Assembly (NCBI RefSeq): GCF_025128095.1
Contig: NZ_JAHLYT010000051.1
Span: forward strand, 1 to 64,000
Direction of reading: 5' to 3'
DNA length: 64,000 bases
Source of the DNA: Synechococcus sp. CS-1328
Lineage (GTDB): Bacteria > Cyanobacteriota > Cyanobacteriia > PCC-6307 > Cyanobiaceae
In this document: piece by piece, positions 36,689 to 42,543 of the stretch
How positions within the stretch are numbered: position 1 is the stretch's first letter
Layout of the letters: each line of letters starts with the position of its first letter
The notes under the pieces: generated by a model
What the model saw: only the letters and a program-made list of their open reading frames with translations
Told to the model about the DNA's origin: nothing
The model's database searches: none
Program-made: the position numbers and the translations under genes

Positions 36689-37654
36689 TCAGGTGGCGGC
36701 GCCCCTGTCCCCGTGGTGCCGCAGCAGGCCCTCCAGGCTCGCCTGAGCCTGTTGCCGGTAGGAGCCACCGAAGAGATTGGCGTGGTTGAGCAGGTGGTAA
36801 AGGTTGTAGAGCTCCACCCGCTCCCTGTGGCCAGGGGCGAGGGGCCACTCGGCCTCGTAGCCAGCAAAGAAGGCCGGTGGGAAACCACCGAAGAGGCGGG
36901 CCATCGCCAGATCCACCTCCCGATCGCCGCGATACACGGCAGGATCGAAGATTGCACCCCGGCCGTCGTCGAGCAGGGCGGCATTGCCGCCCCAGAGGTC
37001 GCCGTGCACCAGCACGGGCTCCGGCTGGTGCCCCTCCAGCCACTGGGGCAGACGCTCCAGCAGGGTGGCCGCCTGGCGCAGTGGCGCGCCGCCGCGTGCG
37101 GCCCACTCCAGCTGGGGAAGCAGGCGACGGTCGCGGAAGAACTCCACCCAGCTGTCGCACCAGCCATTGACCTGGGGAGCGGCACCGATCCAATTGTCCT
37201 GCGGCCAGCCATGCCGGCCATCGGCGCCCTCCAGGCTGCGCCGGTGCAAGATCGCCAGGGAACGGCCCAGCTGCTGCCAACCCCGCTGCCGCCGTGCTGC
37301 AGCGTCGCCACGCTGGCTGACTGAGCTGTTGGCGGTCGCCTGGTTGCCGCCCGACTGGCCGAACAGCAGCCAATCGGTCACCAGCAGGGCAGCCTCTGCC
37401 ACCAGCCCCACAAACACGGGCTGGGGCAGCGCCAGCTCAGGGGGTGCCGAGGCAGCCAGGGCGCGCAATCCGTCGGCATCGGCCTGCAGCAGCGGCAGAT
37501 CGGCTGGCTTCAGAGTCTTGGCGAACAGGCTGCGGTCAGCGGAAAACCGCAGGCGCCAGGCACGGCCCGTGCAGCCTCCGCCGACCGGCTCCACCGAGGC
37601 CGGCACCTCACCGCAGTGATCCCGGGCCCAGAGACCCAGCTGGGACGGGAGCAT
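36689..37654 (-). CDS. Fructosamine kinase-family protein
   Basis: A 321-residue APH-like kinase. Key motifs are PVLVHGDLWGGNAALLDD (catalytic loop with Asp and Asn) and IFDPAVYRGDREVDLAM (metal-binding DPA), both diagnostic of the fructosamine/ketosamine-3-kinase group that phosphorylates glycated amines for repair. LFAKTLKPADLPLLQ supplies the ATP-binding Lys. The ATG at 37654 was chosen because it begins the conserved part; a frame upstream is open but reads into the divergent desaturase gene. It converges with the PSD-like gene. Confidence 0.88.
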   Translation of the reverse strand: MLPSQLGLWARDHCGEVPASVEPVGGGCTGRAWRLRFSADRSLFAKTLKPADLPLLQADADGLRALAASAPPELALPQPVFVGLVAEAALLVTDWLLFGQSGGNQATANSSVSQRGDAAARRQRGWQQLGRSLAILHRRSLEGADGRHGWPQDNWIGAAPQVNGWCDSWVEFFRDRRLLPQLEWAARGGAPLRQAATLLERLPQWLEGHQPEPVLVHGDLWGGNAALLDDGRGAIFDPAVYRGDREVDLAMARLFGGFPPAFFAGYEAEWPLAPGHRERVELYNLYHLLNHANLFGGSYRQQAQASLEGLLRHHGDRGAAT

Positions 37655-37693
37655 GGCTCGCACCGGCCAAGGGAACGCTGCCAGCATGCCGCG

Positions 37694-39238
37694 ATGACGG
37701 AGGCGCACGGCACGCAGTCGCAGGGCACGGGAACTGACGGCACCGATGCACACGGCACGGTGGTGGTGCTGGGCGCCGGAATCGCCGGCATCACGGCGGC
37801 GGCCCTGCTTGCCCGCGCCGGCCTCGACGTGGATCTGCTCGAGGCCCACCACCAGAGCGGCGGCTGCGCCGGCACCTTCCGGCGCGGTCCCTATGTCTTT
37901 GATGTGGGCGCCACCCAGGTGGCCGGCCTGGAAGTGGGTGGCATTCACGCGCGGCTGTTCGCCCATCTGCACCAGACCCCGCCGGCGGCCACACCCCTGG
38001 ATCCGGCCTGTGTGGTGGATCTCCTCGACGGCCTTCCACCGGTGCAGCTCTGGCGCGATCCGCTGCGCTGGCAAGCGGAACGGCAGCGCCAGTTCCCCGG
38101 CAGCGAACGGTTCTGGCAGCTCTGCGCCTGGCTGCATCGCACCAACTGGGCCTTCGCGCTGCGCGATCCGGTGCTACCACCGCGCTCGCTCTGGGATCTG
38201 GGCCAGCTCTGCGGCGCCCTGCGGCCAGCCACCTTGATCAGTGCCCTGGCCACGGGCGCCACGGTGGCCGATCTGCTGCCCCTCTGCGGCTGCGGCCACG
38301 ACCCGCGCCTGCGGCGCTACCTCGACCTGCAACTGAAGCTCTACTCCCAGGAGCCCGCCGATCGCACCGCCGCCCTCTACGGCGCCACCGCCCTGGCCGT
38401 GGCGCAGGAGCCGCAGGGGCTCTGGCACCTCGAGGGTTCGATGCAGGAGCTCAGCCGGGCGCTGGAGGAGAGCCTGGCCCGCTGGGGCGGCCGCCTGCGA
38501 CTGCGGCACCGGGTCCACCAGCTGGAGCGCCGCGATGGCGGCTGGATCGTGCGGGGAGACAAAGGCGGCAACACCCCCTTTGCCCTGGCCTGTGAGGCGG
38601 TGGTCTGCACCCTGCCCCCCCAGTGCCTGAGCGAGCTGCTGGGCGAGGCGCTGCCAGCGGGCTACCGGCAGCGCCTGCAGCATCTGCACGAACCCTCCGG
38701 CGCCCTGGTGCTCTATGGAGCCGTGCCGCGCTCCGTGCTGCCGCCCCACACCCCCAGCCATCTCCAGCTCGACTGGCCAGCCCCGGGCCCACTGTTCGTG
38801 TCGGTGAGCCAGGAGGGCGATGGACGGGCGCCCCAGGGCCAGGCCACCGTGATCGCCAGCGTGTTCACGCCGGCCCACCCCTGGTTCGGCCTGGACGAGA
38901 CCGAGTACCAGGCGCGCAAAGCCCAGGCCGGCACCGCCATGGCGGCCGGCCTGGAGCAGCTGCTCGGGATCGGATCAACCGACTGGCTGCACCGGGAACT
39001 GGCCACACCCCGCGGCTTCGCCGGCTGGACCGGACGGCCCTGGGGCTATGTGGGGGGGCTGGGCCAGCACCCCAGCCGCTTCGGGCCCTTCGGGCTGGCC
39101 AGCCGCACACCATTGCCGGGGTTCTGGCTCGGCGGCGATTCCATCCATCCCGGCGAGGGCACCGCCGGCGTGAGCCTCTCCTCGCTGATGCTCTGCCGCC
39201 AGCTGCTGGCGGAGCGCCGCCAGCCCCTGCGGATCTGA
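37694..39238 (+). CDS. crtD: Carotenoid desaturase, CrtD-like
   Basis: A 514-residue FAD-dependent desaturase/isomerase-type enzyme. The N-terminal Rossmann motif is VVLGAGIAGITAAALLARAGLDV, and the C-terminal FAD/substrate segment is PLPGFWLGGDSIHPGEGTAGVSLSSL. Middle signatures such as GGCAGTFRRGPYVFDVGATQV place it in the CrtI/CrtD/PDS superfamily, closest to cyanobacterial C-3',4' desaturase CrtD of myxoxanthophyll-type carotenoid synthesis. A different desaturase or isomerase (for example CrtH) is possible. It starts with a hydrophilic Thr/Gly-rich lead. TyrA runs convergently 10 bases after it. Confidence 0.75.
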   Translation: MTEAHGTQSQGTGTDGTDAHGTVVVLGAGIAGITAAALLARAGLDVDLLEAHHQSGGCAGTFRRGPYVFDVGATQVAGLEVGGIHARLFAHLHQTPPAATPLDPACVVDLLDGLPPVQLWRDPLRWQAERQRQFPGSERFWQLCAWLHRTNWAFALRDPVLPPRSLWDLGQLCGALRPATLISALATGATVADLLPLCGCGHDPRLRRYLDLQLKLYSQEPADRTAALYGATALAVAQEPQGLWHLEGSMQELSRALEESLARWGGRLRLRHRVHQLERRDGGWIVRGDKGGNTPFALACEAVVCTLPPQCLSELLGEALPAGYRQRLQHLHEPSGALVLYGAVPRSVLPPHTPSHLQLDWPAPGPLFVSVSQEGDGRAPQGQATVIASVFTPAHPWFGLDETEYQARKAQAGTAMAAGLEQLLGIGSTDWLHRELATPRGFAGWTGRPWGYVGGLGQHPSRFGPFGLASRTPLPGFWLGGDSIHPGEGTAGVSLSSLMLCRQLLAERRQPLRI

Positions 39239-39248
39239 ACCGAATGGG

Positions 39249-40211
39249 TCAGAGGAACTGGGGGCGCAAGTCGCGGCAGGCGGTCAGCACCTGCTGCAGT
39301 TCCGTCCAGTCTTCCCGGCGCACCAGCTGCTCGAGCTGATCAAGGCTGTGGCGGTAGCTGGCCAGAGCCTGCAGCACCGCCTCCCGGTTGCCGCGGGCCA
39401 TCAGAGTGCCCAGCTCGGGGTTGCCGCCCCCCACCCGGGTGGTGTCGGCGAAGCCACTGGACGCCAGGGTCCGCACCAGGCTCGGCAGCGAACTGCTCTG
39501 GGAGGTCTGGCTCTGGGACGGCTGGCTCGATGCAGGCTGGCCCTCGCCGGCGCTGCCCCGGTCAGCGGTCTGGAGCAGCGCCGCACTCACCAGCACCGGC
39601 AGATGGGAGATCAGGGCCACCGCGGCGTCGTGGGCCGTGGCCTCGCAGCACACCCAGCGGGCCCCGAGGGTCGCGGCCAGGTCAGCCACCAGGGCGAGCG
39701 CCTCGGGGTCGGTGTCGTCAGCGGGGGTGACCACCCAGGGACGGGCGACGAACAGGTCGCGCACGCCGGCCTCCACACCGGCTTCGGCGGTGCCGGCCAT
39801 GGGATGGCTGGGCACGAAGCGACGCGCCTGCCGCTCCCGGCCCAGCCGCCGCAACGCCGCCGACCACACCGGCAGCAACGGCCCCTTGACCGAGCCCACA
39901 TCGGTCAGCACTGCCCCCCCCTCAGGCAGGGCCTCCAGCAGGGCTGGCGGCGGCGCCAGCAGCTGATCCAGGGGCAACGCCAGCACCACCAGATCGCAGC
40001 CTGCCAAGACCGAGGGATCGGTGCTCACCACCGAAGCCAGCCCACGGTCACGGGCCCTGGTGGCGGTGGCCTCACGGCGCACCAGGGCCCGCACCTCGGC
40101 TCCGGCCGTTTGCAGGTCGAGGCCGAGCGATCCGCCGATCAACCCCAGACCCACCACACCCACCGGGCCATGGCGCCAGGCAGGCCGGGGCTCGGCGGGG
40201 TTGGTCATCAT
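39249..40211 (-). CDS. tyrA: Arogenate/prephenate dehydrogenase
   Basis: A 320-residue enzyme of tyrosine (and thus tocopherol/plastoquinone) synthesis. The dinucleotide motif is VGVVGLGLIGGSLGLDL. Conserved catalytic parts are TDVGSVKG, RFVPSHPMAGTAEAGVEAG and the NADP-domain TATHD-like EATAHDAAVALISHLPVLVSAAL. Cyanobacterial TyrA usually prefers arogenate and NADP+. A Ser/Gln-rich insertion (SQPSQSQTSQSSS) lies near residues 232-245. Two adjacent ATGs (40211, 40208) can start it. It diverges from the DinG-like gene. Confidence 0.92.
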   Translation of the reverse strand: MMTNPAEPRPAWRHGPVGVVGLGLIGGSLGLDLQTAGAEVRALVRREATATRARDRGLASVVSTDPSVLAGCDLVVLALPLDQLLAPPPALLEALPEGGAVLTDVGSVKGPLLPVWSAALRRLGRERQARRFVPSHPMAGTAEAGVEAGVRDLFVARPWVVTPADDTDPEALALVADLAATLGARWVCCEATAHDAAVALISHLPVLVSAALLQTADRGSAGEGQPASSQPSQSQTSQSSSLPSLVRTLASSGFADTTRVGGGNPELGTLMARGNREAVLQALASYRHSLDQLEQLVRREDWTELQQVLTACRDLRPQFL

Positions 40212-40250: not shown

Positions 40251-41723
40251 ATGCTGGAAGCCCTGGCCCATCAACAGCTGAAAGCCCTGCTGCGCCAGGA
40301 GGGAGCAGCCGAGTGGCCGCATCACCTCAGCCTCAGCCGGCTCGTGGCCCGCAGCCTGCGGCGAAGCGACCACACCCTGATCCGGCTCACCCCCGGCACC
40401 GGCCCCGACTGGTGGATCAGCCTGCTGGTGCCGCTGGCCCTCAGCGACGCCCCCCTGGCTCTGGTGCTGAGCCAGGACTTACGCCAGCGCCTGCTGCAGG
40501 TGGAATGGCCGCGGCTGCGGGCCGTGAATCTCGCCCTCCCCCTCTGGGAAGGATCTGGCCCCTGCCCGCCCCATCGGATCTGGCTGCTGGACCACGGCGA
40601 GCTGATGGAGGCCTGGCGGAACGGCCAGCTGGAGCAGCGCCAGCTGGTGATCCCGGAGGCCGAAACCCTGGAGCCGCAGCTGCGCCGTTCCCTGGCGGTG
40701 CGGATCACGGCCGACGGCTGGAACCGGTTGCTGCGCAGCCAGCCTGCGGCCGAAACCAGCCTGATGGCCCTGCACGACCGCTTGAGCCGGCGGGTTCTGG
40801 AACCGCCGCGCCGGCCCAGCGGCCTGGTGGCCATCGCCGCGGAGGAGGAGGCGCCGCTGCGCCAGCTGCTCGCCCTGCTCGGCCCCCTGCCGCCCCCCTG
40901 GGACCAGTGGCTGGAGCAGGGGGGTGATGGCTGGAGCAGCTGGGCTGAGGTGGACATGCGGCTGTTGCAGTGGACCCTGCACCGCCAGCCCCTGCAGCCC
41001 CTCCACGCCCTGGGTGGCCTGCTCAGGGGCCGGGGGGCGGTACTGCTGGGTCAGTTGGCCGGTTCTGTTCCGGCCGGCCGGAGCAGTCAGGCGAACGCCG
41101 CAGCCCCCGGGTCCGCCCTCGGCCTCACGCCCCAGGTGGTGGTCGATCTGGGGGATCCTCCCCTGGCCGATCCGCTGCCCCTGTTCGCCCCCCTGCGCCA
41201 ACCGCTGCCCAATAGCCCCGTCTTCCCTCAGCATCTGCTGGAGCAGAGCCGCCGCCTGGTGCTGGGGCAAGGGCGGCTGAGTGTGATCCTCTGCGACGAC
41301 GACGGCCTGCGGCTCGGCCTGGCCAGTGCGATGGCGGCGGAGTTCGGCCGCCGGGTGGAACACGAATCCACCACTCCCGATGCGAATGGGGTTCTCTGCG
41401 CCCGCTGGAGCTGGTGGCTGGAGCAGCAGGAGCGGCTGCCGCTGCCGGGTCAGATCCTGGCGGCCACCTTGCCGATCGCCAGCCTGGAGGATCCCCTCAC
41501 CGCCGCCCGGGTCACCGCCCTGCGTCAGCAGGGGCTCGACTGGTTCCGGGAGCTGCTGCTGCCCGAGGCCGTGAACCGGCTGCAACGGTCCGTGGCAGGC
41601 CTGCGCCGCGGCGGCGGGCGCCTGGCTGTGCTGGACGGACGGTTGCGCAGCCGCAGCTGGGGCGCCACGGTGCTGCGGGCCCTGGAACCCTGGGTGAGCC
41701 TGAGCCGTCTGCTGCCCAACTAG
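40251..41723 (+). CDS. DinG-like helicase-family protein with eroded ATPase motifs
   Basis: A 490-residue protein. Its C-terminal region resembles the DinG/XPD end: QGLDWFRELLLPEAVNRL and GGGRLAVLDGRLRSRSWG match the helicase motif V/VI part. The upstream motifs are degraded. The Walker A site reads TPGTGPDW (residues 47-54) where GTGKT is expected, and the DEAH box reads VIPEAETL (133-140). The Fe-S cysteines of XPD/DinG are not visible. It may have lost ATPase activity and act as a nucleic-acid binding scaffold. It reads away from tyrA with 39 bases between starts. Confidence 0.7.
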   Translation: MLEALAHQQLKALLRQEGAAEWPHHLSLSRLVARSLRRSDHTLIRLTPGTGPDWWISLLVPLALSDAPLALVLSQDLRQRLLQVEWPRLRAVNLALPLWEGSGPCPPHRIWLLDHGELMEAWRNGQLEQRQLVIPEAETLEPQLRRSLAVRITADGWNRLLRSQPAAETSLMALHDRLSRRVLEPPRRPSGLVAIAAEEEAPLRQLLALLGPLPPPWDQWLEQGGDGWSSWAEVDMRLLQWTLHRQPLQPLHALGGLLRGRGAVLLGQLAGSVPAGRSSQANAAAPGSALGLTPQVVVDLGDPPLADPLPLFAPLRQPLPNSPVFPQHLLEQSRRLVLGQGRLSVILCDDDGLRLGLASAMAAEFGRRVEHESTTPDANGVLCARWSWWLEQQERLPLPGQILAATLPIASLEDPLTAARVTALRQQGLDWFRELLLPEAVNRLQRSVAGLRRGGGRLAVLDGRLRSRSWGATVLRALEPWVSLSRLLPN

Positions 41724-41752: not shown

Positions 41753-41998
41753 ATGGGGGAAGCCAAGCGTCGTTCCACCCAGGGGCTGCCACCGCGGGGT
41801 CCCAAGCCAGCCGCAGGCAGCGGCACGAGCCCGGAGCGTGTCGCGCCGTGGCTGCCTTTGAGCAAGGATCAGGCCAACCGGTTCGTGGCGATCACCACCC
41901 GTGGGGCCTGGTACGGCATCGGCGCGCTGGCGCTGCTCTGGGTCACGGTGCGCTTCATCGGCCCCGCCGCCGGCTGGTGGACCCTGTCGGACGGCTGA
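41753..41998 (+). CDS. DUF2839-family small membrane protein
   Basis: An 81-residue protein beginning MGEAKRRSTQGLPPRGP, the hallmark of the cyanobacterial DUF2839 family, with one transmembrane helix near the C-terminus (YGIGALALLWVTVRFIG). The basic N-terminus is cytoplasmic. Function unknown. It lies 29 bases after the DinG-like gene on the same strand and may be co-transcribed with it. Confidence 0.85.
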   Translation: MGEAKRRSTQGLPPRGPKPAAGSGTSPERVAPWLPLSKDQANRFVAITTRGAWYGIGALALLWVTVRFIGPAAGWWTLSDG

Positions 41999-42144
41999 AT
42001 CCTGCGCGGCCGGAGCAGCGCCCAGCAGGCAGGCCCAATCCGGCCAGCAGGTGCAATTGCCAGCAGACGCTGATCAAAACCGATGGCGCCCGCGAAAAAC
42101 TGAAGAAAACATTAGGATTGCGCCACCGACCCCGCTGGCCCGTC

Positions 42145-42543
42145 ATGTTCCCGCGTCTGGCTGAGCAATACCGAACCCTCGTCCACGACCTGGTGATGAG
42201 CCTTCAGGCTCTTGCCCGCAGCCTCCAGCAGCAAGGCTGTGTAGCCACCTGCTACGTGTGCGGTGATGGCCGGGATAATCATGGAGCTTCCTTCGTGGCC
42301 GACCTGGGCGACAACCACACGGTGCGATTTCTCGTGTCTGATTTCGGCATCACCTGGGTCGAATCCCGCGACGGGCACGAACTGGTGAAGCTGGAAGGTG
42401 CCGAAGCCATCCAGGAGCTGCAGCGGGTCACCCAGATCCTCCAGAAGCCTGAGCCCGCTCCGATTCACTCCGTTCTGAAGCCCAGCGGTCCTCGCCATCG
42501 CGGCTCGCTGGCGACCAGCGAGCCGATCGAAACGGCTGTCTGA
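42145..42543 (+). CDS. DUF1815-family protein
   Basis: A 132-residue protein of the cyanobacterial DUF1815 family. Matching segments: RLAEQYRTLVHDLVMSLQALA, CVATCYVCGD, LGDNHTVRFLVSDFGITW and ELVKLEGAEAIQEL. The central part is predicted alpha/beta, and the C-terminal 30 residues are basic and disordered. Function unknown; no catalytic motif. The last six codons are part of a direct repeat that continues past the stop. It converges with recA. Confidence 0.88.
   Translation: MFPRLAEQYRTLVHDLVMSLQALARSLQQQGCVATCYVCGDGRDNHGASFVADLGDNHTVRFLVSDFGITWVESRDGHELVKLEGAEAIQELQRVTQILQKPEPAPIHSVLKPSGPRHRGSLATSEPIETAV

Follow-up and report, generated by a model that had tools for sequence, protein, structure and literature searches.

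Within the window, a 64,000-nucleotide stretch of Synechococcus sp. CS-1328 (Cyanobiaceae), an open reading frame runs uninterrupted from an ATG start to a TAG stop and encodes an ATPase-dead relative of DinG of the short type, sDinG. The frame is intact over all 490 codons, as originally predicted. Table 1 collects the features of the protein and its neighbors. Beyond tyrA lies a gene of the FAD-dependent amine oxidase family, which we read as CrtD-like and which occupies the same place in 54 of 63 Cyanobiaceae loci.

Table 1. The sDinG reading frame, its segments and neighboring genes (window coordinates).
Feature	Coordinates	Strand	Basis
ATPase-dead DinG relative (sDinG type), 490 aa	40251..41723	+	Frame, homology, distribution
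TPGTGPDW, residues 47-54, Walker A (motif I) position	40389..40412	+	Alignment to intact DinGs
VIPEAETL, residues 133-140, DEAH (motif II) position	40647..40670	+	Alignment to intact DinGs
LPIASLEDP, retained; counterpart to P motif 614-AFPPID-619 of E. coli DinG	41469..41495	+	6fwr alignment; P408 in 110/110
DWFRELLLP; invariant F432 opposite E. coli F638 (deoxyribose stacking)	41538..41564	+	6fwr alignment; W431, F432, P438 in 110/110
LDGRLRSRSWG, conserved end of HD2 domain	41631..41663	+	D462, R464, R468, G471 in 110/110
tyrA (prephenate/arogenate dehydrogenase), divergent neighbor, likely start 40208	39249..40208	-	Pfam PDH_N/PDH_C; frame
DUF2839 gene, 29 bp downstream of the sDinG frame	41753..41998	+	PF10999, E 9.3e-29
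DUF1815 gene, candidate partner, start inferred	42145..42543	+	PF08844, E 2.9e-45; inside ORF 41848-42543
FAD-dependent amine-oxidase-family gene	37616..39238

Homology to DinG and loss of the ATPase site

Scores for single sequences are weak. The window protein earns 13.6 bits against Pfam model Helicase_C_2, below the cut-off of 25.3, and its matches to the NCBIfam models for YoaA (E 5.6e-10) and DinG (E 5.2e-9), both over residues 402-481, fall far below the curated cut-offs. A single-sequence search of the PDB returned no relevant match. Such scores would favor a reading in which true homology to DinG is lacking and the C-terminal match is convergent. Two orthologs, L083 (28.7 bits) and L134 (33.4 bits), exceed the Helicase_C_2 cut-off. 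A profile built from 39 sDinG relatives matches a profile of five intact DinGs, from genomes of the same phylum outside Cyanobacteriia, over 469 columns (E 5.7e-40; probability 100%); the alignment passes over the Fe-S segment of DinG in one large gap. Searched against the PDB, the sDinG profile has E. coli DinG (6fwr, E 1.8e-7) as its sole significant match; two ribosomal protein matches (E 0.18 and 0.31) were taken as chance. Because the profile match is full-length, placing the protein in the DinG/XPD helicase superfamily, the similarity first noticed in the C-terminal region is real rather than accidental. A search of viral contigs for sDinG relatives found none.

Motifs were compared in an alignment of 110 sDinG relatives and 11 intact DinGs, which left out incomplete rows (420 residues or fewer), L042, L054, L056 and the duplicate loci L058, L078 and L079. 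The intact DinGs read GTGxGKS, DE[AM]H, SAT, FWEGV and QGxGRL[IV]. The original prediction had TPGTGPDW replacing the GTGKT loop and VIPEAETL replacing the DEAH box, and these do align with the P-loop and the DEAH of the intact proteins. A P-loop of the form [AG]xxxxGK[ST] appears nowhere in the sequence of any of the 110 relatives. Motif II as DExH is absent from all 110, of which six retain the H of DEAH. The erosion goes further than was first noticed, with the residues of motifs III, V and VI replaced in the relatives as well. The cluster-binding cysteines reported as missing are missing throughout: three columns near the Fe-S site, holding Cys in 11, 11 and 6 of the 11 intact DinGs, are gaps in 110, 110 and 109 of the 110 relatives. 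The marks of an active DinG helicase, namely Walker A GxGKT/S, the DEAH box, the Fe-S cysteines and QxxGRxIR in motif VI, are all lacking.

In all five rows that we take to be Gloeobacterales, the degenerate copy has D-[GRC]-A-H at motif II (DGAH, DCAH or DRAH). Judged from its sequence, this motif is a remnant of DEAH whose catalytic glutamate is gone. Together with the full-length profile match, this intermediate leaves convergence hardly credible. The same genomes also hold a second, intact DinG (L140-L143, L145). A Helicase_C_2 match of at least 99 bits occurs in 6 of 146 class genomes, five of them Gloeobacterales-like and the sixth G466, and several weaker matches lie in long frames. In those six an intact DinG (L140-L145) stands beside the dead copy; such a protein did not show up in most of the other class genomes. 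For Synechococcus sp. CS-1328 itself, the genome, in an assembly 94% complete, yielded nothing for Helicase_C_2 at E 0.001, and hence no sign of a second DinG.

A hidden or alternative nucleotide site, making sDinG a nucleotide-regulated protein, is quite unlikely. Motif II reads IDEAD in two of the 110 rows (L098, L099), yet these have no P-loop. The structure predictions are too poor to use, with pLDDT 33.6 from the single sequence and 41.1 from a two-row alignment of the window protein with L001, which leaves such a site some room. Against it stand the lack of a P-loop in all 110 rows, the replaced arginine positions of motif VI, and an extra helix that seemingly fills the ATP site in a Nostoc model, as described in Cheng 2025 (PMC11981726). 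Our alignment has extra columns where that sDinG has its helix, between beta1 and alpha3, although our structure models there are of low confidence.

Distribution, descent and selection

Members of the sDinG family are found in 261 of 289 Cyanobacteriia genomes and in 186 of 201 from Cyanobiaceae (128 of the 130 good ones). All 20 absentees among those listed, of 28, belong to a single family, f26, presumably Pseudanabaenaceae, and f26 contributes none of the genomes that have sDinG. At six f26 loci, no remnant of sDinG was found beside DUF2839 at E 10. Two Cyanobiaceae assemblies, G187 and G040 (L042/L056), show an in-frame stop in sDinG, through error or decay.

A quick tree of 71 rows, 60 sDinG and 11 intact DinG, splits the two sets with support 100. 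Gloeobacterales are basal among the sDinG sequences, their own grouping having support 67; family f10 joins Cyanobiaceae at 98, and Cyanobiaceae form one group at 99. The tree contains 24 rows of unusual composition and one very long branch (2.82 per site), that of genus g18, and its topology agrees with vertical inheritance that began ahead of the diversification of the class. In g18 (L045-L051, family f1), sDinG is extremely diverged, with about 25% identity to the window protein; the g18 genomes among those listed do not have DUF1815.

Omega (NG86) falls between 0.06 and 0.34 in all 68 close pairs, drawn from 12 hand-picked groups of close relatives with divergent pairs left out, and indicates purifying selection; the range for g18 is 0.17-0.34. 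Between the window and its nearest relative, omega is 0.167 for sDinG, 0.180 for DUF1815, 0.234 for tyrA and 0.491 for DUF2839 (81 codons). The expectation of a gene maintained to make a non-ATPase protein is thereby upheld, with purifying selection acting where the canonical ATPase site is absent.

The idea that the gene is a decaying pseudogene or a relaxed remnant of DinG could appeal to the long g18 branch, the two in-frame stops and the absence from f26. It is largely refuted, however, by an open frame of near-constant length (466-551 residues in 110 rows) across the sampled families and by omega well below 1, g18 included. We rejected it on the omega values and regard it as very improbable.

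The erosion predates the sampled members of Cyanobacteriia and is not local to this genome. We are highly confident that sDinG is an ancient, mostly single-copy and mainly vertically inherited pseudohelicase of oxygenic cyanobacteria, which had already shed its nucleotide site, its Fe-S segment and motifs III, V and VI by the time the sampled Cyanobacteriia split from one another, and on which purifying selection has acted ever since. A dead helicase is present in nearly every sampled cyanobacterium, small picocyanobacterial genomes included, and its near-universal retention means that it must have a useful role.

The retained HD2 segment and a possible link to DUF1815

Passages of PMC6300356 assign the handling of ssDNA on HD2 of E. 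coli DinG to the P motif and F638. The alignment to 6fwr sets PIASLE (408-413) opposite the P motif and F432 opposite F638, and the residues P408, W431, F432 and P438 are identical in every relative. Residues 403-440 have a mean conservation of 0.68, the highest of the segments measured, compared to 0.51 overall and 0.45 for the P-loop region. R468 is likewise found in all 110, with K at that position in 10 of the 11 intact DinGs. A point against binding is that D430 stands opposite Y636 of E. coli, the residue that intercalates between bases, though D is also found there in 8 of the 11 intact DinGs.

With the ATP machinery gone and the nucleic-acid-facing segment kept, ATP-independent binding or presentation is the preferred reading. 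The protein would work independently of ATP. Its second motor domain, with the P motif, the F638 equivalent and the conserved LDxRxxxR region all retained, would probably hold ssDNA or RNA statically, and the bound nucleic acid, or a surface of sDinG itself, would be offered to a partner protein, for which DUF1815 is the best candidate. We put this role forward tentatively, at slightly short of an even chance. That family f26 manages without the gene counts against it.

The main competitor is a pure protein-protein scaffold that binds no nucleic acid, in which HD2 conservation merely keeps the fold; that conservation may indeed be structural rather than for binding. Two stretches away from the DNA site show family-specific conservation of 0.67 each, WPHHLTxxRLVARxLRL at the former Q-motif helix and LAAEFGSRV around residues 362-369. 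In addition, Cheng 2025 (PMC11981726) describes an MD1 lacking conserved DNA-binding residues, with DNA modeled only partially. The segment spanning the P motif and DWF, however, is the best conserved of those measured, and we consider the scaffold possible but rather unlikely. For the whole explanation, an ancient pseudohelicase with an ATP-free binding role, we judge the case evenly balanced.

The gene neighborhood was counted in 63 Cyanobiaceae loci and 47 others, within the limits set by flank length. DUF2839 lies downstream and co-directional in 63 and 16 of these, respectively, and DUF1815 likewise in 41 and 13. The adjacency to tyrA, part of the original description of a repurposed helicase scaffold, is constant within Cyanobiaceae, where all 63 loci have tyrA upstream and divergent, but it was found at only 6 of the 47 elsewhere. 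That description has partial support.

DUF1815 is described as cyanobacteria-specific in a passage of PMC5580265. It was found in 233 of the 289 class genomes. A cross-table compiled by hand gives 233 genomes with both sDinG and DUF1815, 28 with sDinG alone (24 of them Cyanobiaceae), 28 with neither and none with DUF1815 alone. In a further comparison of 20 genomes, DUF1815 is absent from all 12 of f26 and present in the other eight. This nested distribution is suggestive of a link between DUF1815 and sDinG, although the shared absence may reflect one single loss event. DUF2839 was rejected as a co-lost partner, since all 20 genomes tested have it, the 12 from f26 included; a passage of PMC3597751 places it in a cluster with PsaL in marine metagenomes.

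A more specific proposal pairs sDinG with DUF1815 in a complex peculiar to cyanobacteria, one that would hold on to single-stranded nucleic acid with no need of ATP. The dead helicase would have been fixed before the living oxygenic cyanobacteria radiated and kept in place of a DinG apparently missing from most later lineages. We think this unlikely as a whole. Given the HD2 segment that is retained, the DUF1815 link and a family without both, the role can be put to the test in Synechococcus elongatus and other model strains; G472, which we take to be that species, appears to carry sDinG.

Comparison with known systems

The short-type DinG has been reported before, under the name sDinG. Section 3.9 of the review Cheng 2025 (PMC11981726) describes a short cyanobacterial protein without the Fe-S domain and without ATP-binding residues, and lists it only for Nostocales, Chroococcidiopsidales and Pleurocapsales. 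The window protein agrees in being short, in lacking both the Fe-S domain and the conserved ATP-binding residues, and in having extra residues between the P-loop strand and helix. Its length and alignment are compatible with the compact Arch domain, MD1 and MD2 of sDinG, within the low confidence of the models. In the tree it falls in one clade with rows L088 and L089 of a family, f7, that is presumably Nostocaceae; sDinG of Nostoc PCC 7120 was compared by its published description. Among literature matches listed for "sding," only PMC11981726 concerns DinG by its title, and the literature searched gave no function for sDinG. The window protein therefore belongs to a kind already in print, with a wider range, which extends over almost all of the class with picocyanobacteria and Gloeobacterales among its members, and with a candidate partner. 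New here are the near-universal range, the fossil DEAH motif, the retained ssDNA-facing segment and the DUF1815 link.

With E. coli DinG (PDB 6fwr/6fws) and YoaA, sDinG shares the domain order, the P motif of HD2 and the PN and LDxR segments, but it is without the P-loop, DEAH, the residues of motifs III, V and VI, and the Fe-S segment. The intact DinG of Gloeobacterales is homologous over its length and encoded in the same genomes as the dead copy, but it has intact motifs and represents a separate gene and clade. RecC likewise retains a helicase fold without ATPase activity to handle DNA; unlike sDinG, it comes from the SF1 lineage and is part of a motor complex.
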